Source: Nitrosopumilus sp. b3
Lineage (GTDB): Archaea > Thermoproteota > Nitrososphaeria > Nitrososphaerales > Nitrosopumilaceae
Reading direction: 5' to 3'
DNA: 64,000 nt
Assembly: GCF_014078525.1 (NCBI RefSeq)
Contig: NZ_MU078694.1
Span: 186,001 to 250,000 of the forward strand
Both the position numbers and the translations under genes were made by a program. Below are positions 46,786 through 63,120 of the stretch, in pieces (positions within the stretch are counted from its first letter, which is position 1; each line of letters begins with the position of its first letter). The notes under the pieces were generated by a model that saw only the letters and a list, made by a program, of their open reading frames with translations, was not told where the DNA came from and made no database searches.

Positions 46786-48417
46786 TTGAAACTAGAAAAA
46801 ATAGAAAATTCATTTAAACCAACTTCAGACAAAAAATCTTCTTTTGCAAAAAAGGGCATGGTTTCTTCAGCATTTCCTGATGCGACAAAAGCAGGAGTTG
46901 AAATGCTCAAGAAGGGCGGTAATGCAATTGATGCTGCATGTGCCACAGCAATTGCACTAGGTGTATGTGAGCCTCAGGCATCTGGCCTTGGCGGGCAATC
47001 GATGGCAATTATTCATTTTAATGGAAAATCATTTGCGATCGATGGCTCTAGCCGTTCCCCTTCCATGGCACATTCATCAATTTTTACAAAAAAGAAAACA
47101 AGACTACTGGGATACAAAGCAACCACTGTACCTAGCACTCTTGCTTTGATTGGATTTTTGCATGAGCGTTATGGTACTTTGGAATGGCAAAAAATCATTG
47201 CACCTTCAATTCACATTGCTAAAAAAGGATACAGAATTACTCAATTACAACACTCTTTACAAGAAAGAGAATTGAAAAACTTTCTTTCAATTAAATCAAA
47301 GTCTGGTGCAAAATATTTCCTAAAAGATGGTTTGGTTCCCTATGATGTCGGTGATAGATTTGTTCAAGATGATCTTGCTCAAACTCTTGATGCCATTTCT
47401 GAATACGGATACCGTGTTTTCTACCAGGGTAATATTGCTAAAAAAATTGATGAAGATATGAAAAAAAATCACGGATTAATTCGAGAAGAGGATTTAGCAT
47501 ACGTCCCAGAACCACTAATTAGAAAACCAATTAGCCGGAAATACCGTCATCTTACAGTATCTACTTTACCTCCGCCAGCAGCTGGACGGACATTACTTCT
47601 AACATTGATGATGCTCAATCACTTGCCCTCCAAATTTCTTCGTAGCTCAAAGCCTAGCTCGTATCATTTTGTTGCCGAAACATTTAGGAAAGCATTCTTG
47701 CATAGAGTGCAACGTCCATTTAATAGACATACATATGATCAAATTCAAGATAAATTGCATTTGCAAAGAAGCTTTGCAAAACAGATGGCTGACTCCATCC
47801 ATAATTCTATGGATGCAACGTTGCCCATGATTGATCCGGATTTTGGTGGGGAAGATACTACACATCTTTCAACTATGGATAATGACGGAAATGCTGTGGG
47901 AATAACACAATCTGTTGAATTAGCATATGGATCCAAAACTGCAGCAGCGGATATGGGATTTCTGTATAACAACTATATGTCTGCATTTGAGTTTACGACT
48001 CCAAATCATCCTTACTATATTCGGCCTAACGCCATTCCTTGGACTTCAGTATCTCCTGCATTGATTTTTAATAATTCAAAACTCTGGATGGTTGTGGGAA
48101 GTCCCGGTAGTCAAAGAATTTATTCGACCATCACACAATTTCTTTCACGAATCATTGATGGTAATTTACCAATGGATGAGGCAATTATACGTCCACGATT
48201 TCATTGTTCTATTGGAGGTACTATCAGCATAGAAGACGGGGGATTTAGAACTGAAATTATTAACTTTCTCAAAGAAATGGGATATGAGATTTCTATTAAA
48301 GAAAGATATTCTTTTTACCATGGAGCAATTCACGCTACGATGAAACTACAAACACAAGAAGGATTTCAAGGAGTTGCAGAAGTTCGACGTGATGGGACAG
48401 CCGAGGGATTAAATTAA
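46786..48417 (+). CDS. Gamma-glutamyltransferase family protein (no signal peptide)
   Basis: N-terminal-nucleophile hydrolase. The autoprocessing Thr is Thr358 in EDTTHLS. The N-terminal block SSAFPDATKAGVEML, GNAIDAACATAIALGV and ASGLGGQSMA are family hallmarks, as is GSPGSQRI near the end. 543 residues, normal. No signal peptide, so probably cytosolic, unlike the periplasmic E. coli enzyme. Starts TTG 46786. Its 3' end overlaps the next gene by about 10 bp. Confidence 0.9.
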   Translation: MKLEKIENSFKPTSDKKSSFAKKGMVSSAFPDATKAGVEMLKKGGNAIDAACATAIALGVCEPQASGLGGQSMAIIHFNGKSFAIDGSSRSPSMAHSSIFTKKKTRLLGYKATTVPSTLALIGFLHERYGTLEWQKIIAPSIHIAKKGYRITQLQHSLQERELKNFLSIKSKSGAKYFLKDGLVPYDVGDRFVQDDLAQTLDAISEYGYRVFYQGNIAKKIDEDMKKNHGLIREEDLAYVPEPLIRKPISRKYRHLTVSTLPPPAAGRTLLLTLMMLNHLPSKFLRSSKPSSYHFVAETFRKAFLHRVQRPFNRHTYDQIQDKLHLQRSFAKQMADSIHNSMDATLPMIDPDFGGEDTTHLSTMDNDGNAVGITQSVELAYGSKTAAADMGFLYNNYMSAFEFTTPNHPYYIRPNAIPWTSVSPALIFNNSKLWMVVGSPGSQRIYSTITQFLSRIIDGNLPMDEAIIRPRFHCSIGGTISIEDGGFRTEIINFLKEMGYEISIKERYSFYHGAIHATMKLQTQEGFQGVAEVRRDGTAEGLN

Positions 48418-49205
48418 CAAAATTACCTATTCTATTATCCATTCCACATGGTGGAATACGAAAACCTGTTGAACTTGACGGACATCTCTGCATTACAAAT
48501 AAAGATCTTTTTGATGATTCTGATCCTTTTGTGATTGAAATGTATGATTTGAATGATAAAGTACAGCGTGTAGTTAAATCCAAAATTGCAAGAGCATTTG
48601 TAGACCTTAATCGTGCACCCGATGATTTGCCCCCAAATAACCCTGATGGAGTAATTAAAAGTTCAACATGTTACAAAAAACCAATTTATCATGAGAGAAA
48701 AGAACCTGATGACTCTCTTAGAACAATGTTACTTGAGTTGTATTATTTCCCTTATCACAATTCTATACAAAAGAGTCTAGATGAATTAGAACTCCAATTA
48801 TGTCTTGACTGTCATTCTATGGCAACGATTGCCCCTGGAATTTCACCTGATGCCAAGAACAATAAACGACCAAAATTCTGCTTATCTAATAATGATGGAC
48901 AGACTGCATCTCAAGAAATGATGGATTTGTTAGCCTCATGTATTTCTGAATCATATGATATTGATAGGAATGAAATTTCAATAAATGATCCCTTTCATGG
49001 TGGGCATATTACAAGAACATATGGAAACAAACCTGTACCTTGGATTCAGGTTGAAATGAATAGAGATTTGTATCTGACAGAGCCTTGGTTTGATCAAGAA
49101 AATCTAACGGTAGATCCAACACACCTGAAGAAATTAAATAAGCAATTTGAAAATACATTGAATCTTTTTTTTAAAAAATTTGATGGAGTAGATTCTTGGC
49201 AGTAG
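48408..49205 (+). CDS. N-formylglutamate amidohydrolase-like protein, non-canonical start
   Basis: The essential motif SIPHGG lies near residue 12, well upstream of the first normal start codon (GTG 48531). LDCHSMATIAPG and HGGHITRTYG also match the family, which is metal-dependent. The frame back to 48408 offers ATT, and then TTA, but no ATG, GTG or TTG, so I start it provisionally at ATT 48408. It overlaps the gamma-glutamyltransferase stop and, at the other end, the antiporter start. Substrate is unproven; an N-acyl-glutamate or related amide is likely. Confidence 0.75.
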   Translation: MKLTKLPILLSIPHGGIRKPVELDGHLCITNKDLFDDSDPFVIEMYDLNDKVQRVVKSKIARAFVDLNRAPDDLPPNNPDGVIKSSTCYKKPIYHERKEPDDSLRTMLLELYYFPYHNSIQKSLDELELQLCLDCHSMATIAPGISPDAKNNKRPKFCLSNNDGQTASQEMMDLLASCISESYDIDRNEISINDPFHGGHITRTYGNKPVPWIQVEMNRDLYLTEPWFDQENLTVDPTHLKKLNKQFENTLNLFFKKFDGVDSWQ

Positions 49206-50980
49206 AGGTAACCGAATTCCTTGCACTGCTAGCATTGCTACTAGGTGGCGGGATGATTGGAGCAGGAATAATGAAAAAAATAAAGTTTCCAACCATTATT
49301 GGTTTTATCTTAATTGGAATGATTTCAGGACCATATGGACTTGGAATTGTTGATGATGTTGAATTAATCAATCTTTTAGCAGAATTGGGAATAATTATTC
49401 TGCTATTTGTAGTGGGATTAGAATTCAGTCTTCAAAAATTACGAAAGGCTGGAATGAAAGCAATCACAGTTGGAATGACAGAATTATCAATAATGTTTTT
49501 TCTGGCGTACATTGGAGCTTTTTCATTTGGATGGTCCCATTTAGAATCCCTTTATCTGGCAGGAATTTTGTCAATCAGCAGCACTGCCATCTCTTTACGA
49601 ATAATGAGAGATCTTAAGCTAGTAAAAACAAAAGAATTTGATACTATTATTACAATTTTAATTGTTGAGGATCTTGCAGCAGTTTTACTCTTAGTTATTT
49701 TAGGTAATGCCTCTGAAGGAGCTACACTTGATTTAACGGGTGTTGGAATTTTGATTTTACAAAGCTTGACGTTTTTTGTTATTGCACTAGCTCTTGGAAT
49801 TAAATTAATTCCAAAACTTTTGGAGAAGATACATGGATTGGATATTCCCGAAGGCCCGTTCATCACAGCGCTTGCTTTGGGGTTTGGGTTGGCAGTTTTG
49901 GCGCATTTTCTTGGTCAAAGTTCAGCTATTGGAGCATTTATCATGGGAATGATCATTGCATCATCAAAACATTCTGAAAGCATCACAAAAAAAATTCTTC
50001 CATTAAGAGACTTTTTTGGCGTAATATTTTTCGTATCTATTGGAATGCTGGTAAACATTATGGCAATACCTGAGGTTGCCTTGATATCCATGCCCATAAT
50101 CATTTTGGCTGTTGTTGGAAAATTCATTGGAAATTTCTTTGGATCTTCAATTGGTGGTCATGGTATTGTTAGTTCTTCAACTATAGGTTCTGTAATGGTA
50201 CCTAGAGGTGAGTTTTCCTTTATCATGGCAAAGCAGGCTGTTGATAGTGGTTCAGTTAGAGATACTCTATATCCAGTTACCATGTTGGTGACTCTTGCTA
50301 CGATGCTTTGCATGCCATTACTGCTGAAAATATTACCAACACTTGCAGATAAAACAAGTCATATTCCAATGAATATTTTAAACCCGATTCATATTGTTGG
50401 AAAATTTTTTAATAATTTGATGAATACTCCTGATGATAACAGCCAATTCAATATACTTTTGAAAAAGCATGGAATAAAATTTTTTATTAATCTGATGGTT
50501 GTAATAGCAATCCTTGCAATCATTGATTACTTTAATGATGATATAGTGACAATTATTTCTACACTTGGTATTCCACTCCCAATTGAACCTGAAATACTTT
50601 TGACAATTATTAGCATATTGCTAATCATCTATCCTGTAATTGCGATGCTTGGTAAAATTGAAAATTTAGTTACAAGTATCTCAGATATTTTATCCACCAA
50701 ACTAATTCCAGCAGATACACAACGACTTGAAGAGAAGCCACTCCATAGATTAATGAGAAATATTTTCTTTATTGGTTTTATTTTGATACTTATAGCTATC
50801 ATGCAACCTTACATTGCAGATATTGTGGAACTTCCATTTCTCCCCTTTATCATATCTGGAATAGGGCTTACCATAGCAATAATTTTGATAGCTGATTCTG
50901 TATTTGTATTCCAAAAGCTATCTCATGGCCATATTATGGAAAGTTTGATGAAAGAAGATGAAACTTTTGAGCCTGAATAA
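49196..50980 (+). CDS. CPA2-family cation:proton antiporter with C-terminal extra helices
   Basis: About 12 TMs in the first 400 residues, with FVVGLEFSL and the DLAAVLLLV segment (conserved Asp of antiporters). After residue 440 there are three to four more hydrophobic helices and no RCK domain. 594 residues. TTG 49196 overlaps the upstream gene by 10 bp. Exchanges K+ or Na+ for protons across the cytoplasmic membrane. Confidence 0.9.
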   Translation: MAVEVTEFLALLALLLGGGMIGAGIMKKIKFPTIIGFILIGMISGPYGLGIVDDVELINLLAELGIIILLFVVGLEFSLQKLRKAGMKAITVGMTELSIMFFLAYIGAFSFGWSHLESLYLAGILSISSTAISLRIMRDLKLVKTKEFDTIITILIVEDLAAVLLLVILGNASEGATLDLTGVGILILQSLTFFVIALALGIKLIPKLLEKIHGLDIPEGPFITALALGFGLAVLAHFLGQSSAIGAFIMGMIIASSKHSESITKKILPLRDFFGVIFFVSIGMLVNIMAIPEVALISMPIIILAVVGKFIGNFFGSSIGGHGIVSSSTIGSVMVPRGEFSFIMAKQAVDSGSVRDTLYPVTMLVTLATMLCMPLLLKILPTLADKTSHIPMNILNPIHIVGKFFNNLMNTPDDNSQFNILLKKHGIKFFINLMVVIAILAIIDYFNDDIVTIISTLGIPLPIEPEILLTIISILLIIYPVIAMLGKIENLVTSISDILSTKLIPADTQRLEEKPLHRLMRNIFFIGFILILIAIMQPYIADIVELPFLPFIISGIGLTIAIILIADSVFVFQKLSHGHIMESLMKEDETFEPE

Positions 50981-52878: not shown

Positions 52879-54486
52879 TTGTCATTTGAGCCTATTTTGT
52901 ATATTGGAATCTTACTCCTAGCTGCTAAACTATTTGGTGAAATTATGCATAGGATTAACCAGCCTACTATTTTGGGTAATGTTCTTGCAGGAATAATTGT
53001 TGGACCTGCGCTTTTTGCTCTCGTCCAACCTATTGAAGAAATTGAACTTTTCATATCAATTGGTGTCTTTTTCTTATTTTTCTTAATTGGTCTTGAAGAA
53101 ATTGATCTTGCAGGACTCTTCCGTGTAATTAGAGGTAGAATATTTGCAGGCTCTGCAGCTGCATTTTTAATCCCTTTCATAGTGGCTGGAATTTTTGGAA
53201 TGGCTTTGGATATGGATTTTATAAAATCATTTGCGATTGCAAGTGTAATAGCTGCCTCTAGCTTGGGAGTTACAGCCAAAGTTCTAAGTGATCTTGGAAA
53301 ATTAAAATCTACAATCGGTCTTGAAATTTTTACTGTAGCTGCAATTGTTGAATTCATTGCAATTATTGTGACAAGTATTATGATTCAAATCAGTACTAGT
53401 CAAACACCTGTCTTTTCAGAGTTTATCTGGCTATTTGTAAAAATGATCATATTCTTTGCAGTTGCAGGACTTGTATCTGTATTTATTTTACCCCGTTTTT
53501 TCCGTTACATAAAAAAACACCTACAGGTAACACAAATTTATTTTGGTGTCGTAATTGGAGTAATCCTGCTAGTTGCATATTTTGCAGAAATTAGTGGAGT
53601 TCATGGTGCAATTGGTGCACTGCTTTTGGGGATTGCTGTATCTAGAATGAGTAGAGAGGATTATACCGAAATTTCAAAAAATGTACATGCAGTAGGTTAC
53701 GGTATTTTTATTCCTATATTCTTTGCAGGAATCGGACTTCACTTCAGTACCGCATTTCTTGATTTAGAATTATGGGTAATAGCCGGATTCCTTGTAATAA
53801 TGATTGGTGTAAAATTCCTTGGCTCTTACATTGCAGTACGTATTGCACAGATGCGACCTGCAACAACTGTTGCATATGGTGTCATGTCAAAAGGAGCAGT
53901 TGACTTGGCATTAATGCTGTCTCTGTTACAAGTCAATATTTTGAATAACAGTTTGTTCTCATTATTGGTGCTAGGAACTCTAATGACTATGATAATCTCT
54001 AGTGTTGAACTTCAGCGTAAACTAAAGAAAATCATTCATTTCAAAGTTGGGACTATTGAAATGGGATTGGTTCCAGGTTATTTTAGAAGGGTAGTTTCAG
54101 ATGTTACTGCGATGATGGTAATCAATACTGCATATCTAAAGACAACAAAGGATGTTACAATCAAAGACTTTCTTGAAAATAATACATTAGGCAAAATGCC
54201 TTTCTTGGTTTTTGATGAAAATGAAATCCTGGTCGGAGTTGTCTCAAAACGTGAAATAGAAAAATCCCACAAAAAAACTCGTGATATTACAACTGTTGGT
54301 GATGTAATGTATGAAAAGGTTCCAACAGTATTGCCTAGTGAATATCTTTATTCTGTAATTCAGAAGATGAATTCTTACCCCTTTGATATGATACCTGTAG
54401 TTGATCCTGAAGATTTGAAAAAAGTAGTTGGAATAATTTCAAATCATGATATAATGAATTTATTGGTGGAACCAAAAAAACCATAG
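52879..54486 (+). CDS. CPA2-family cation:proton antiporter with C-terminal CBS pair
   Basis: About 12 TMs (residues 1-385), with GAIGALLLG and SKGAVDLALM segments. After residue 405 a CBS domain pair follows (LVGVVSKREIE, and MIPVVDPEDLKKVVGIISNHD), which usually senses adenine nucleotides. TTG 52879 is the start. Second antiporter of the cluster, but with a different regulatory tail. Confidence 0.9.
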   Translation: MSFEPILYIGILLLAAKLFGEIMHRINQPTILGNVLAGIIVGPALFALVQPIEEIELFISIGVFFLFFLIGLEEIDLAGLFRVIRGRIFAGSAAAFLIPFIVAGIFGMALDMDFIKSFAIASVIAASSLGVTAKVLSDLGKLKSTIGLEIFTVAAIVEFIAIIVTSIMIQISTSQTPVFSEFIWLFVKMIIFFAVAGLVSVFILPRFFRYIKKHLQVTQIYFGVVIGVILLVAYFAEISGVHGAIGALLLGIAVSRMSREDYTEISKNVHAVGYGIFIPIFFAGIGLHFSTAFLDLELWVIAGFLVIMIGVKFLGSYIAVRIAQMRPATTVAYGVMSKGAVDLALMLSLLQVNILNNSLFSLLVLGTLMTMIISSVELQRKLKKIIHFKVGTIEMGLVPGYFRRVVSDVTAMMVINTAYLKTTKDVTIKDFLENNTLGKMPFLVFDENEILVGVVSKREIEKSHKKTRDITTVGDVMYEKVPTVLPSEYLYSVIQKMNSYPFDMIPVVDPEDLKKVVGIISNHDIMNLLVEPKKP

Positions 54487-54500
54487 TTAATTTTTTTAAA

Positions 54501-55817
54501 TTAATCTTCAGGTATATTGTCAGTGTTTATTCTCTTATCAAAAACCAGACATGCAGTAAGATCTCCTGTAACATTTACCATCGTTCTTGTCATATCTAAA
54601 ATCCTATCGACCCCCAACAAAAGCACTACTGCAACAGGTGGGATGCCTGCTGTTATCAGAATTGTTGAAAGTATTACAATACCTGTTCCAGGAGCTGAAG
54701 GTGCTCCAATTGATGCTGCAAGCGCTGTTAATGTGATTAGCAATATTGTAGTAAATCCTAAATCAATACTGAATAATTGTGCTAGGAAAAATACTGCTAC
54801 AATTTGGTATAGTGCAGTGCCATCCATGTTAATTGTTGCACCCAACGGAATAATGAATTGAGACACCTTTGGTTTTACTTTCATTTTCTCTTCTGCTGTC
54901 TTAATTGATAATGGCATTACTGCTGCAGAACTGGAAGTTGAGAATGCCAATAACTGTGCATCCTTCATCATTGCAAATGTGGTTGATAATGGTCTCTTTG
55001 CAACAAATTTGATGATTAGCATATATGCCAATATCATAATAAAAAGACCAATCACCACTGTTGTCATGTATGCTCCAAGAACTGCAAGTGCTGAAAGACC
55101 GACTTTGGATGTGATTCCTGCAATTAATCCAAATGCTGCAAATGGTGCAAGACGCATTGCCCATGAAACTACTTTCATGGTGAGTTTTTGTATGGATTCT
55201 AACAAGTCAAGAATTGGCTGAGAACTTTTTTTAGGTAATGCAATCATCGAGACTCCTACAATTAATGCAAAAATAATTATGCTTAACATTTCACCGGACA
55301 TAAAAGACGATAATGGATTACTTGGAATTAAGCCAACAATACTCTGTGGAATGTCATGTATGTTGAATTCTGTTTTTTCAACAGGCTCCATATCTTCAAT
55401 ACCAAAACTTTCTCTAATCAATGAACTATCAATAAAATTTCCTGGTTCTATTGCAGATACAATAAGAATTCCTATTGTTAATGCAATGATGGTTGTTAAT
55501 ACAAAATACACTGATGCTCCTAATCCAAGTTTTTGTAACTGCTCCATACTTCCAGAAGATGTAATTCCTCGAATTATTGATGCAAAAATTAAAGGAATAA
55601 TGATCATCTGAATAATTTTTAGAAATAAATTTGCAGGAATAGATAACCAGTCTGTAATTAGCTCTGCAGTATTTTTTTCAACGAGACCCATTTCTGGACC
55701 TAGAATTATTCCTGCAATTAGCCCTAAAAATAATGCAAAGAGTACCTGTGCCCAGAGTTTTTTCTTAACTAAATACGTAATTTGAGGAATAGGATAATTG
55801 AAAGACTTGATTGCCAT
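54501..55817 (-). CDS. Dicarboxylate / amino-acid:cation symporter (SDF family)
   Basis: The hallmark STSSSAAVMPLSI near residue 310 and NMDGTALYQ near 348 belong to the glutamate/dicarboxylate symporters. About eight TMs plus two re-entrant hairpins. 438 residues. Probably takes up C4-dicarboxylates or acidic amino acids with Na+ or H+. Confidence 0.93.
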   Translation of the reverse strand: MAIKSFNYPIPQITYLVKKKLWAQVLFALFLGLIAGIILGPEMGLVEKNTAELITDWLSIPANLFLKIIQMIIIPLIFASIIRGITSSGSMEQLQKLGLGASVYFVLTTIIALTIGILIVSAIEPGNFIDSSLIRESFGIEDMEPVEKTEFNIHDIPQSIVGLIPSNPLSSFMSGEMLSIIIFALIVGVSMIALPKKSSQPILDLLESIQKLTMKVVSWAMRLAPFAAFGLIAGITSKVGLSALAVLGAYMTTVVIGLFIMILAYMLIIKFVAKRPLSTTFAMMKDAQLLAFSTSSSAAVMPLSIKTAEEKMKVKPKVSQFIIPLGATINMDGTALYQIVAVFFLAQLFSIDLGFTTILLITLTALAASIGAPSAPGTGIVILSTILITAGIPPVAVVLLLGVDRILDMTRTMVNVTGDLTACLVFDKRINTDNIPED

Positions 55818-55909: not shown

Positions 55910-56350
55910 TTGGTATTGAAACTTCTAATCTCGCTTTTTGTGATATCTGCTGCCGTAGTGGGCATTAGTGGTATAGGGATTTTTTTAATAGAGTCGCCTT
56001 ATGAGGATGCTCAAATTACAAATTTGCTTGATGCATTTTGGTGGGCATCAGCTACTGTTACAACAGTGGGATATGGAGATGTGGTTCCTGTTACAGAACT
56101 TGGAAGGGTAATGGGAATTGTTTTGATGTTTGTAGGAATAGCAATTATTGGTACTTTTATTTCTGCACTAGGTGCATTACTTATTGGATCTAGATTAAAG
56201 AAGCATGAGACTGTTGAATCTTCAACAAAGTCATTGATAATTAAGAAAATTGGCGATATTGAGAATTTGGAGAAACATGAGGTTGAATTGTTAATCTCAA
56301 TGGTAAAAGACTTGCATGATGAAGCAAAAGATAATCGTCAAAAAAATTGA
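55910..56350 (+). CDS. Two-TM K+ channel
   Basis: Short N-terminus, TM1, pore loop with TVGYGD near residue 52, TM2, then an acidic/basic cytoplasmic tail with no RCK domain. 146 residues. TTG 55910 or a nearby TTG (55916) may be the start. KcsA-like leak or regulated channel. Confidence 0.9.
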   Translation: MVLKLLISLFVISAAVVGISGIGIFLIESPYEDAQITNLLDAFWWASATVTTVGYGDVVPVTELGRVMGIVLMFVGIAIIGTFISALGALLIGSRLKKHETVESSTKSLIIKKIGDIENLEKHEVELLISMVKDLHDEAKDNRQKN

Positions 56351-56989: not shown

Positions 56990-57988
56990 ATGGATTTTGT
57001 TGTTATTGAAATTATTGTAATTGGAATTTTGATATGCTTTTATGCTCTTTTTAGTGGGCTTGAAATTGCAATTGTTGGGGTCAGACGTTCTAAAGTTATT
57101 CGTATGTATAGAAAAAACATTCCTGGTTCATCACCTCTCTACAAATTAAAAATGAACCCCGCAATGATGACCTCTGGTGTTAATTTGGGAAATACCTTGG
57201 TTAATGTTGCATCTTCTGTTCTGGCAGCTGATGTTGCAATAAAACTACTTGGAAGTCAAGGAGTTGGGATAATTATTGGAATAATGACATTTGTAATTTT
57301 GATTTTTGGAGAAATATTGCCTAAGACATTTTGTAATGTTAATCCTGAAAAAGCATCTTTAAAACTAAGTGGGATTTTATTAGCATTCACTTATTTGATG
57401 TATCCTTTTGTTAAACTCTTAGAATACATCACCCGCTTCATCTTGAATCTTTTTGGCGGTTATTCCCAAAGACCCAGACCAATCACTGAAGAAGAAATCA
57501 AGGAAGTAATAGATTTAGGCTATGCCGATAAAGCCCTTGAAAAAGAAGAACGTGATCTTGTGTATAATGCATTAGAGTTTGATGATAAACCAATTAAAGA
57601 TGTTATGACTCCAAAAGAAAACGTTTTTTCATTGGATGGAGCATTGACATTATCAAAAAGTATCTCAAAAATTAAAGATAAGGGATTTTCACGAATTCCA
57701 GTTTATGAAAAAACATTAGATAATGTTGTTGGGGTATTGCATATTTGGGATATCGCAAGACTGACTGAAAAAAAATTCTCCACTACTAAAATAAGCACTT
57801 TGTCCAGAAAGCCTTTCTTTATTTATTCCAGTGAACGAATTAGTCATCTTTTGATTGAACTTAAGAAACAAGATATGCATATGGCAATAGTTCTAAATGA
57901 GCAAGATCAACTGGTTGGAATCATAACCGTTGAAGATTTGTTGGAAGAAATTGTAGGCGACATTGTAGGCGAGGCAAAAAAACAATAA
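56990..57988 (+). CDS. CNNM/CorC-type protein (DUF21 + CBS pair)
   Basis: DUF21 membrane domain (residues 1-180, four TMs, with LGNTLVNVASSVLA and FGEILPKTF), followed by two CBS domains (KDVMTPKENVF near 205; HMAIVLNEQDQLVGIITVEDLLEEI near 300). Lacks the usual C-terminal CorC_HlyC domain. Proposed Mg2+/divalent cation exporter or sensor. Confidence 0.88.
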   Translation: MDFVVIEIIVIGILICFYALFSGLEIAIVGVRRSKVIRMYRKNIPGSSPLYKLKMNPAMMTSGVNLGNTLVNVASSVLAADVAIKLLGSQGVGIIIGIMTFVILIFGEILPKTFCNVNPEKASLKLSGILLAFTYLMYPFVKLLEYITRFILNLFGGYSQRPRPITEEEIKEVIDLGYADKALEKEERDLVYNALEFDDKPIKDVMTPKENVFSLDGALTLSKSISKIKDKGFSRIPVYEKTLDNVVGVLHIWDIARLTEKKFSTTKISTLSRKPFFIYSSERISHLLIELKKQDMHMAIVLNEQDQLVGIITVEDLLEEIVGDIVGEAKKQ

Positions 57989-59521: not shown

Positions 59522-59956
59522 ATGCCTCTAGATAAAATTCCCGATACTGAGCAATACATGCCTTCTCATAAATCTACTATTTTACATGTTAAAGGAAAAC
59601 CTGTTGCATGCATTATTGATAATGTTCCAGATGCTAAATCACGTTTTCATGAAATCTCTAAAAATGATGCATTACAGGCAAGCTTGATTGGATTTCTAAA
59701 CAAACATGATGATTTAGGTCTGTTAATGGGATTCAAATTAAAGATTAAGACAGATAATGATTTTTTTGAATACACTGTATACCCCACGGAGGAGTTTATT
59801 GATACAGTGATTTTTGATGAATCTATTTTTATCATTAATGATAAATTAGAAAACCTTTTTTCTTTAAGAAAAATTATAACCGATCAATTCATCAAAACTA
59901 AAACAGAATTTGACAAGTTTCAAAAATTGATTCCTAAAAATCCTGAGAATTCATAA
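59522..59956 (+). CDS. Hypothetical protein (144 aa)
   Basis: Soluble alpha/beta protein with HVKGKPVACIIDNVPDAKSRF near residue 22 and a helical C-terminus. No motif. Divergent from 59007-59432 across an 89-bp spacer; 39 bp before the nuclease gene. Confidence 0.58.
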   Translation: MPLDKIPDTEQYMPSHKSTILHVKGKPVACIIDNVPDAKSRFHEISKNDALQASLIGFLNKHDDLGLLMGFKLKIKTDNDFFEYTVYPTEEFIDTVIFDESIFIINDKLENLFSLRKIITDQFIKTKTEFDKFQKLIPKNPENS

Positions 59957-59995
59957 TTTCAAAATATTCAATAAACAGATATTGTAATTTTTCTT

Positions 59996-60661
59996 ATGTC
60001 AAATTTTTCACAAATGTTAAAGATTCGAGAGCCTGAATTACTAGATCGTGAAGATGGTCATTGGTACAAGACAAAATTTGATAAAATCTATCCATCCATC
60101 AGTACTATTTTGTCTGCAACATCTTCAGATGACAAGCAAAATAGTTTGAAATCTTGGCGAGAAAATGAGCCTGCACATGAATATATCACTGCTCAAGCAC
60201 AAGATATTGGAACACAATCACACAAGATAATTGAAGACTATCTGGGTAATGTTTTATCATTAGAAGAATTTGACTTACTTCCAATTGCGCATTTTAATAA
60301 TTTAAAACCATATTTAGAAAACATTTCTGATGTTGTATCTATTGAACAAAGAATGTATTCTGATAAATTAAAGGTGGCTGGGACTAGTGATTTAATTGCA
60401 AAATACAATGGTGAAATATCCATAATTGACTATAAGACAAAAAGAAAACCTCAGATGGACGAATACATGTATGAGTATTATTTACAAACTACCTGTTATG
60501 CTCAAATGTTTCATGAAGTAACAGGTCAGAAAATCAATCAAGTGGTCATTCTAGTTAGTAGTGAAAAAAACACACGTCAAGAATTCATAAAATCATGTGA
60601 TGACTATATTGAACCAGTAAATGAAAGGATTGAAAAATACTATCTGAATAGTCTTAATTGA
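59996..60661 (+). CDS. PD-(D/E)XK nuclease, MGME1/RecB-like
   Basis: Exonuclease-type fold: GTQSHKIIEDYL near residue 73 (His), AGTSDLIAKY near 128 (Asp), SIIDYKTKRK near 142 (Asp-x-Lys) and YYLQTTCYAQMF near 160 (motif QxxxY). These match the MGME1/RecB/Cas4-like group that trims single-strand ends. 221 residues. Its neighbour is a C2H2 mini-protein. Confidence 0.85.
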   Translation: MSNFSQMLKIREPELLDREDGHWYKTKFDKIYPSISTILSATSSDDKQNSLKSWRENEPAHEYITAQAQDIGTQSHKIIEDYLGNVLSLEEFDLLPIAHFNNLKPYLENISDVVSIEQRMYSDKLKVAGTSDLIAKYNGEISIIDYKTKRKPQMDEYMYEYYLQTTCYAQMFHEVTGQKINQVVILVSSEKNTRQEFIKSCDDYIEPVNERIEKYYLNSLN

Positions 60662-60951: not shown

Positions 60952-63120
60952 ATGAAAGTTGCACTAATCTATAATGAAAATATCATTGATCCAAATGATG
61001 TAATCAATGTTTTTGGAATGACCACAAAAGAGCATTACAGCTCAAAAGCTGTAGAACGAGTTGCAAGATCATTAGAACGAGGGGGGCATACAGTTAAGGT
61101 AGTTCAAGGCGACATCCATCTAGCTGATGAATTAAAAGAATTCATGCCCAAGGTAGTTGCAGGTGAAAACCCTGGAATGGTTTTCAACATGGCATATGGT
61201 ATACAAGGTCAGAACAGATACACACACGTTCCTGCAATGATGGAAATGCTTGGTATCCCATACATTGGTTCAGGTCCTGCAGGACATGCAATTGTTCAAG
61301 ACAAAGTGATGACAAAGATTGTTTTACAAAAAAATAATATCTCCACCCCTGGATTCTGGGTTTTTCGAACACCTGAGGACACTTATGATGATTTAGTTTT
61401 TCCTGTAATTGTTAAACCAAAACTAGAATCTACCTCGATGGGAATGGAAGTTGTAGATAATTGGGATGACCTTCGTGCAGCTGTAAAAGTACAGATTGAG
61501 AAATTTGAACAAGATATACTGGTTGAACAATTCATTTCAGGTAGAGAATTTGCAGTTGGTATGTTAGGTAATAGCCCTAACATCGATGTTCTTCCAATCG
61601 TCGAAATTAATCTCGATGATCCAGATCAAATACAAACAATTTCTGATAAAAAGAAAAAGGGAGGAGTTGAAAAAACATGTCCTGCAAACTTGTCAAAGGA
61701 AAAGGCAGAGGAGATGAGACAAATGTGCAAAAGGGCATTTAGCTGTTTGGGTCTAAATGATTACAGTAGAGTTGATTTTAGAATGGATAAGGATGAGAAT
61801 CTTTACATTCTTGAACTAAACTCGATGGCTAGTCTTGGACAAGGTGGGTCTTTTTATTATGCTGCAAAGACTGCTGGATACACATATGATTCCTTAATCA
61901 ATAAAATTTTAGATGTTGCAGTCATTCGATATTTTGGTTCCTCAATACAACAGCATACTGCTGATGTTGATTTAACACAACCATTGCGTGTTGTGGCTAG
62001 AACTTATCTGAGGGGTCATTTACAAAGTCTCAAGGAAACATTACGTGGCTTTGTGAATCTAAATACCCATGTTTACAACATTGAAAATATCAATCATTTG
62101 GGAACTACCATCTCAAAGCGATTAAAACATCTTGGATTTAGTGAACATATACACAGGCAGCATGACGTGGGTAATTTTTATTATTTTAAAAATCACTCTG
62201 AACCTGAAAATGATGTTTTATTAGTATCCCATCTAGATACACACTATGGTCCAGATGATTTAATCAGTTTCCATGAAGAAAATGATAAAATTGTTGGTTC
62301 CGGGATAGCTGAAAGTAAAGGTGGATTGACTGTGATGTTGGGGGCATTACATGCATTAAGATTTGCAAAAAAACTCAAAAAAATCAGATGTGCTGTGTTA
62401 CTTACAACTGATGATAGTTTAGGAGGACGGTACAGTAAGAGGTTTGTTAAGGAATACTCTAAAAAATCAAGATATGTCCTTGGATTAAAATCTGCAAGTA
62501 AAGATGGTGGAATAATTACGACTTGTTATGGGAGAAGTGATTATCAAATAAGATTTACTAGCACTGCTGAGCAATCAGGTTCTGATATTCATGGGATAAT
62601 ACCTGTTTTAGCAAAAAAACTAACTGCAATTGAAAAGCTTTCAAAAGATGAAAAAGATTATCGTTTAAGAACAACATCTGTTATTTCTAAAGGATCTCAT
62701 GGGCAAACTCCTAATTTTGCCACATTAACTCTGATATGTAGTTACAAAACAACAAAGTTTGGTGAATTATTGGATACAAAAATCCAAACTATAATGAAAA
62801 AAAGAGAAACAGGCTCTCCAAAATTAGATGTTTCAATAAATAAAATTCAAACAAGACCACCAGTAATAGAAGAATCTTCTGATACACAATTTTATGAGTT
62901 AGTAGAAGATCTTGCAAAAAAACATGAAATTAAAATTAAAAAACATTCTCAACTAATCTCTTCAGATATTAGCAATGTACCATCTAAACTTCCAGCATTG
63001 GATGGATTTGGACCAGTTGGCCATAACTATCGTTCAACAAAAGAGTATATTGTTCATGACAGCATTGTGGAGAGGGCTGCATTGTTATCTTCAGTATTGT
63101 TCAAATGCGCTGAGAAATAA
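60952..63120 (+). CDS. ATP-grasp ligase fused to M20-family peptidase-like domain
   Basis: Residues 1-330 form an ATP-grasp domain of the D-Ala-D-Ala ligase type: VIVKPKLESTSMGMEVV near 152 (ATP Lys), EFAVGMLG near 199, and the Mg-binding ELNSMASLGQGG near 288. Residues 350-722 form an M20 metallopeptidase-like domain: HLDTHYG at 427-433, the bridging position is Glu454 (AESKGG), the catalytic pair is Asp487-Asp488 (TTDDSLGG) and the late His is His691. Archaea have no peptidoglycan, so the ligase part must make another peptide or amide bond. 722 residues; ATG 60952. Confidence 0.88.
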   Translation: MKVALIYNENIIDPNDVINVFGMTTKEHYSSKAVERVARSLERGGHTVKVVQGDIHLADELKEFMPKVVAGENPGMVFNMAYGIQGQNRYTHVPAMMEMLGIPYIGSGPAGHAIVQDKVMTKIVLQKNNISTPGFWVFRTPEDTYDDLVFPVIVKPKLESTSMGMEVVDNWDDLRAAVKVQIEKFEQDILVEQFISGREFAVGMLGNSPNIDVLPIVEINLDDPDQIQTISDKKKKGGVEKTCPANLSKEKAEEMRQMCKRAFSCLGLNDYSRVDFRMDKDENLYILELNSMASLGQGGSFYYAAKTAGYTYDSLINKILDVAVIRYFGSSIQQHTADVDLTQPLRVVARTYLRGHLQSLKETLRGFVNLNTHVYNIENINHLGTTISKRLKHLGFSEHIHRQHDVGNFYYFKNHSEPENDVLLVSHLDTHYGPDDLISFHEENDKIVGSGIAESKGGLTVMLGALHALRFAKKLKKIRCAVLLTTDDSLGGRYSKRFVKEYSKKSRYVLGLKSASKDGGIITTCYGRSDYQIRFTSTAEQSGSDIHGIIPVLAKKLTAIEKLSKDEKDYRLRTTSVISKGSHGQTPNFATLTLICSYKTTKFGELLDTKIQTIMKKRETGSPKLDVSINKIQTRPPVIEESSDTQFYELVEDLAKKHEIKIKKHSQLISSDISNVPSKLPALDGFGPVGHNYRSTKEYIVHDSIVERAALLSSVLFKCAEK

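Follow-up and report, generated by a model that had tools for sequence, protein, structure and literature searches.

A Ddl-type ATP-grasp ligase fused to an apparently non-catalytic M20 peptidase-like half in a three-gene module of Nitrosopumilaceae and distant nitrifying bacteria

Results

Genes of the locus and make-up of the fusion

The stretch of DNA analysed here, called the window throughout, comprises 64,000 nucleotides of Nitrosopumilus sp. b3. The features considered are the following (positions within the window):

46786-48417, plus strand: GGT-like Ntn hydrolase, 543 aa, TTG start (PF01019, E 1.6e-112)
48414-49205, plus strand: N-formylglutamate amidohydrolase (FGase)-like protein, about 263 aa, TTG start (PF05013, E 1.3e-45)
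49196-50980, plus strand: Na+/H+ exchanger family transporter (PF00999)
52879-54486, plus strand: Na+/H+ exchanger family transporter with a CBS domain
54501-55817, minus strand: sodium:dicarboxylate symporter family (SDF) protein (PF00375, E 1.6e-114)
55910-56350, plus strand: ion channel (Ion_trans_2)
56990-57988, plus strand: CNNM/CBS transporter-like protein
60952-63120, plus strand: ATP-grasp / pseudo-M20 fusion, 722 aa
60952-61941, plus strand: Ddl-type ATP-grasp half of the fusion, about residues 1-330, catalytic residues intact
61984-63117, plus strand: pseudo-M20 half with a carboxypeptidase-G2-like fold, about residues 345-722, metal ligands lost

The fusion gene is a single open frame with an ATG start. 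Pfam placed Dala_Dala_lig_C at residues 142-320 (E 2.5e-34) and Peptidase_M20, over its cut-off, at residues 423-716 (E 2.9e-11). For the N-terminal half the closest NCBIfam models were D-Ala-D-Ala ligases, whose curated cut-offs it missed by a wide margin; for the C-terminal half they were PRK07338 hydrolases and glutamate carboxypeptidases. An AlphaFold model built from 50 homologues reached a mean pLDDT of 86.5 and replaced an earlier, poor model from 18 archaeal sequences (pLDDT 57.8). In Foldseek searches with the model, the best match of one half was carboxypeptidase G2 (CPG2; 1cg2/6xj5, E ~1e-27, ~390 columns) and the other half matched Ddl ligases, while the mutual placement of the two halves was weak (pTM 0.54). 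The frame, Pfam, the model and the orthologues thus confirm what an earlier note on this DNA had described, an ATP-grasp ligase and an M20-like domain in one 722-residue chain. An assembly artefact was ruled out, since about 50 archaeal genomes, along with the cultured strains Nitrosomonas marina Nm71 and N. aestuarii Nm36, carry the fusion intact.

Only in the lineage of the window and in a few close relatives does the fusion follow a small protein and a PD-(D/E)XK nuclease-like protein (59522-60661). Sigma-70-type sites, which are not expected in archaea, occurred around the fusion gene at chance level in a promoter scan.

The ligase half retains the residues of a Ddl-type enzyme

Residue counts for the fusion family were made on 85 distinct archaeal and bacterial homologues. 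Nine residues of the ligase half (E27, K118, K155, E159, E192, R273, D275, E288 and N290) were invariant in 85 of 85, and we take K118, K155, E192, R273, D275, E288 and N290 to be the equivalents of Lys97, Lys144, Glu180, Arg255, Asp257, Glu270 and Asn272 in DdlB numbering. The equivalent of Ddl Glu15 was invariant. The omega-loop Tyr216 of the Tyr-Ser-Glu triad was not kept, the aligned position (234) being mostly L, K, V or M. The half thus has the fold, the ATP/Mg residues and the acyl-phosphate residues in common with Ddl/VanA-group ligases, but differs from them in its variable Tyr216 position, in carriers that include archaea, and in scoring below every curated Ddl cut-off among the matches listed (167.1 bits against 243 for NF002378, the best, and 154.1 against 245.65 for TIGR01205). 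A role connected with peptidoglycan was rejected on these scores. Archaea have no bacterial peptidoglycan. Identity to other clades was 52-70% for the ligase half, compared with 26-48% for the M20 half.

We also considered that the ligase might act on the tail of a protein or peptide, in the manner of RimK or of graspetide ligases, with the pseudo-M20 half reading the C-terminus. A peptidase-shaped half would suit such recognition, and circularly permuted ATP-grasp genes, in some cases with Alpha-E and transglutaminase-type genes, lie near the module in loci L034, L035, L132 and L134. However, the ligase half belongs to the Ddl type, which acts on small molecules, and its Glu15 equivalent is invariant. 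Nor did the clustered loci show a recurring, conserved gene for a small precursor next to the module. We regard tail modification as quite improbable. The four loci with permuted ATP-grasp genes span Nitrosopumilus and Nitrospinaceae or Nitrosomonas.

The metal site of the M20 half

The C-terminal half shares its fold with the M20A metallopeptidase CPG2 over ~390 columns at 21% identity. For CPG2 we take His112, Asp141, Glu176, Glu200 and His385 to be the metal ligands and Glu175 the catalytic base. Alignments to CPG2 and to canonical M20 sequences gave the same correspondences: His112 is H427, Asp141 is E454, Glu175 is D488, Glu176 is S489, Glu200 is K513 and His385 is R694, and D487 aligns with the conserved Asp that precedes the Glu pair. 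The replacement of the bridging Asp by Glu454, proposed in the earlier note, is therefore borne out. For the Glu pair the note's Asp487-Asp488 is off by one, the true positions being D488 and S489, and in calling the metal residues altered it understated the change, having missed Lys513 and Arg694.

Across the 85 homologues the ligand was lost at the Asp141, Glu176 and Glu200 positions in every sequence and at the His385 position in 84. The residues found were E, R, H, K, C, T or Y at Asp141, S, A, T, C or F at Glu176, and K, S, R, G, N, Q or T at Glu200. His112 was the only metal ligand retained, in 58 of the 85 homologues; the other 27, many of them bacterial, have N, Q or S. At the position of the catalytic Glu175, 61 homologues have D (among them the window's protein, with D488), 15 have E and 9 another residue. 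H427 was retained in archaeal members, whereas His112 is mostly gone in Nitrospina and Nitrosomonas members (NLDN), and bacterial members were observed with both the His and the Glu gone (NLDN, GTGVSRGKGG). The M20 fold is still recognisable there, with Peptidase_M20 over cut-off in one Nitrospina and one Nitrosomonas member too. Judged from the alignments, the M20 metal site is lost, not merely altered, and K513 and R694 may stand in for the positive charge of the metals.

These observations bear on whether the M20 half could still hydrolyse by means of an unusual set of metal residues (Glu454, Asp487/488), acting within a proofreading ligase or a synthase/hydrolase switch. The conservation check proposed earlier favours a constrained site in part, as H427, E454, D487 and D488 are identical in the first 18 archaeal members aligned, but bacterial members differ and lack even the His and the Glu. 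The correct alignment leaves H427, E454 and D488 only, with a Ser at Glu176, and the changes of Glu200 to Lys and His385 to Arg put positive charges in the metal pocket; the operon also encodes separate hydrolases. A built-in hydrolase, proofreader or switch is very unlikely given this family-wide loss of metal ligands, and the invariance of the substituted set in the 18 archaeal members suggests that the pocket is constrained for something else. Among the three ideas of the earlier note, the proofreading ligase and the synthase/hydrolase switch both fall with the substitution of the M20 metal positions throughout the family, and an M20 part that would only bind substrate is the one that survives. 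Compared with CPG2, then, the fusion's half is without the metal-binding residues, is fused to a ligase and is apparently non-catalytic.

Distribution and phylogeny of the fusion

About 40 of the 136 near-complete (at least 90% complete) Nitrosopumilaceae genomes (~30%), from several genera, carry the fusion at full length; within the sampled class it was found in this family only. A 41st match, a lone ATP-grasp in genome G100, was left out of the count of 40 carriers. Bacterial fusions, which align over nearly the whole length at 37-50% identity, were found in Nitrospina, other Nitrospinaceae, Nitrosomonas marina Nm71, N. aestuarii Nm36 and other Nitrosomonas, and also in Binatia, Chitinivibrionales, Latescibacterota, Gemmatimonadota, Dehalococcoidia (Chloroflexota), Coatesbacteria and a Polyangiaceae MAG. 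The remaining ~70% of near-complete genomes in this largely marine family are without the module, so it does not answer a general requirement of life in seawater.

In a tree of the ligase half all fusions formed one clade (support 100/98) adjoining standalone rhizobial ligases. The archaeal fusions were a single clade (100/100) nested among bacteria, and Nitrosomonas sequences were scattered in several places among Nitrospinaceae, which points to transfer between nitrifiers. The tree was rooted by midpoint, and the direction of transfer is therefore inferred.

Several individual loci were unusual. Fusions in L086 (labelled Planctomycetota) and L133 (Ignavibacteria) share 54-55% identity with the one in the window, as a second archaeal group does, and these contigs are probably mis-binned Nitrosopumilus. 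Genome G030 carries two complete modules (L037 and L038), one with an in-frame TAA in its fusion gene, and L102 (4405-7185) encodes a 927-aa version of the fusion with added sequence.

GGT-like and FGase-like partners

In bacterial loci of several phyla and in many archaeal loci the fusion is followed on the same strand by the GGT-like Ntn hydrolase and then the FGase-like gene, and in most bacterial loci the stop of the fusion and the start of GGT overlap by 4 bases. In the window genome both partners, which the earlier note had overlooked, lie ~12 kb upstream of the fusion within the window, and the TTG start of the FGase-like gene overlaps the GGT stop (TTGA). GGT was present in 39 of the 40 fusion carriers and in none of the 96 other near-complete Nitrosopumilaceae (Fisher 2e-33, on genomes that are not phylogenetically independent). 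A full-length or near-full FGase was present in 36 of the 40 (Fisher 9e-29, again on genomes that are not independent), while the sole trace among the 96 non-carriers was a fragment of 36 residues in G151. Some of the exceptions, at least, have the fusion beside a contig end (e.g. G031, G127 and G223).

The window's GGT has the Ntn nucleophile and the small subunit of its family: it passes the TIGR00066 cut-off (369 against 357.85), and its nucleophile Thr (T358, the Thr391 equivalent) was kept in 56 of 56 sequences. Presumably Arg114, Asn411, Gln430 and Asp433 of E. coli GGT form the gamma-glutamyl pocket. Of these, R114 is replaced by S88, N411 by E378 and Q430 by Y397, with S, E and Y in all 56 sequences, and D433 by A400, a position that is A, S or C in 55 of 56 (mostly A or S). 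One Nitrospina locus also holds an ordinary GGT, apart from the module's, that has Arg and Asn at the Arg114 and Asn411 positions. With the pocket residues replaced, a free gamma-glutamyl group is probably not what the module's enzyme acts on. The FGase-like protein keeps the motifs SIPHGG, CHSM and VE(M/L)xR and belongs to the PF05013 superfamily (156.7 against a cut-off of 28.9); it did not reach the cut-off for HutG, the N-formylglutamate deformylase (100.9 against 278.75 bits), and had no solved relative by sequence.

Membership of one partner in the GGT family raises the possibility that the module serves a glutathione-like cycle, with a low-molecular-weight redox or gamma-glutamyl-type compound as product or substrate and not an osmolyte, and gamma-glutamyl-cyclotransferase-like and DDAH-like genes are indeed found ahead of the fusion in some Nitrospina loci (L115, L116). 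Such GGACT-like genes were seen in a few Nitrospina loci only, however, the gamma-glutamyl-binding residues are replaced in 56 of 56 GGTs, and the neighbours are mostly ion transporters and not redox genes. We consider this cycle unlikely. The dipeptide-like metabolite suggested in the earlier note stays plausible, but its hydrolysis would fall to the separate GGT-like and FGase-like genes and not to the fusion protein.

Related ligase systems

The earlier note rightly singled out the fusion. No orthologue with the two domains as separate genes among unrelated neighbours was found. The nearest standalone ligases, from rhizobia, have no M20 partner. These ATP-grasp ligases of symbiotic plasmids are the nearest outside the fusion clade in the tree, at 38-45% identity, and a Bradyrhizobium ligase adjoins a GGT 37% identical to the window's. 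Unlike the fusion module, the rhizobial locus lacks an M20 half and an FGase and has KamA-like and 7TM genes instead; the Bradyrhizobium plasmid operon (L152, 2282-7047) consists of a KamA-like gene, GGT, a 7TM_transglut protein and the ATP-grasp ligase. Its 287-aa gene was rejected as an FGase and is the 7TM protein.

Two other arrangements were noted by eye. In order-level relatives (L043, 8529-11126; L044, 6075-8747) a KamA-like radical SAM gene, a standalone Ddl-like ATP-grasp ligase and a GNAT acetyltransferase gene form a triad, perhaps a beta-amino-acid amide pathway. A 654-aa fusion of a SAM methyltransferase-like protein and a Ddl-like ATP-grasp (L046, 4941-6905) adjoins genes that were named LysX-like, LysK-like and homocitrate-synthase-like. 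A parallel in the way of working may be the N-acetylglutaminylglutamine amide (NAGGN) osmolyte system, with an ATP-grasp ligase and a peptidase gene for a peptide-type osmolyte; it differs in using another ligase family, an asparagine-synthase-type partner and an M42-type peptidase.

No description of the fusion or the module was found in the literature searched, nor any characterised function. The module is well conserved, horizontally spread and apparently undescribed.

Ion-transport neighbours and ectoine synthase

The interval between the partners and the fusion in the window holds the transporters and channel listed above and what is presumably a UspA-like protein, named by eye. A shorter order recurs in related genomes: fusion, in some cases CNNM, membrane protein, ion channel, GGT and FGase. 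Among 96 archaeal neighbour genes we counted CorA 7 times, ion channels 7 times and CNNM 5 times, while CorA, ion channels, CNNM, MgtE and MscS each occurred fewer than 2 times among 129 genes in control stretches of related archaeal genomes. The 109 bacterial neighbour genes, which have no bacterial control, included MgtE 7 times and MscS 5 times. Strong matches to ectoine synthase were observed in 8 of the 40 module genomes and 2 of the 96 others (p 0.0009, with kinship ignored); the window's own genome had no strong match.

Gains of ectoine and channel genes are described for marine ammonia-oxidising archaea in passages of one paper (PMC7554672), and those passages make no mention of the module. 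The N. maritimus exometabolome (PMC8281238) gave no lead. The ion-transport neighbours and the co-occurrence with ectoine synthase fit, without proving, a role in ionic or osmotic stress.

The nearby transporters might instead belong to a purely catabolic module, in which an imported amide is salvaged and the ligase recharges a fragment; the operon's ratio of two amidohydrolases to one ligase would agree with this. No organic-solute uptake system was consistently linked, however, and the most conserved part of the fusion is the ligase (52-70%, against 26-48% for the M20 half), and we regard a catabolic module as unlikely.

Discussion

The reading that we favour, and hold to be moderately probable, is an amide ligase carrying a dead CPG2-like half and accompanied in one module by two separate amidohydrolases, with a stress-linked product. 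The ligase half would use ATP to phosphorylate the carboxylate of an amino-acid-like substrate and then couple it to an amine. The pseudo-M20 half would most likely hold or present the acceptor substrate, make an oligomer, or both. The GGT-like enzyme, with its re-tooled pocket, and the metal-dependent FGase-like enzyme would transfer, trim or break down the amide, so that synthesis and turnover would be split between different proteins of one operon.

The product, perhaps a compatible solute of the amide type, may serve in coping with ionic or osmotic stress. A stress role is suggested by the linkage to ion channels and transporters together with a distribution that is partly marine and estuarine. 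A plain gamma-glutamyl product is made less likely by the changes in the GGT pocket. We regard a stress solute as plausible. More tentatively, and with rather more doubt than belief, we put forward that ammonia-oxidising archaea, ammonia-oxidising bacteria and Nitrospina, three groups of marine nitrifiers, have shared by horizontal transfer a ligase with its own pseudo-peptidase, and that this ligase makes a stress metabolite of amide type not described before, which could be a compatible solute.

Across the whole family, the M20 half looks like a clear example of a metallopeptidase that has become the non-catalytic partner of an enzyme for the opposite reaction, and the cultured carriers Nitrosomonas marina Nm71 and N. 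aestuarii Nm36 make the pseudo-peptidase idea testable. The module points to a new metabolite pathway that some 30% of the near-complete Nitrosopumilaceae genomes have in common with distantly related nitrifying bacteria.
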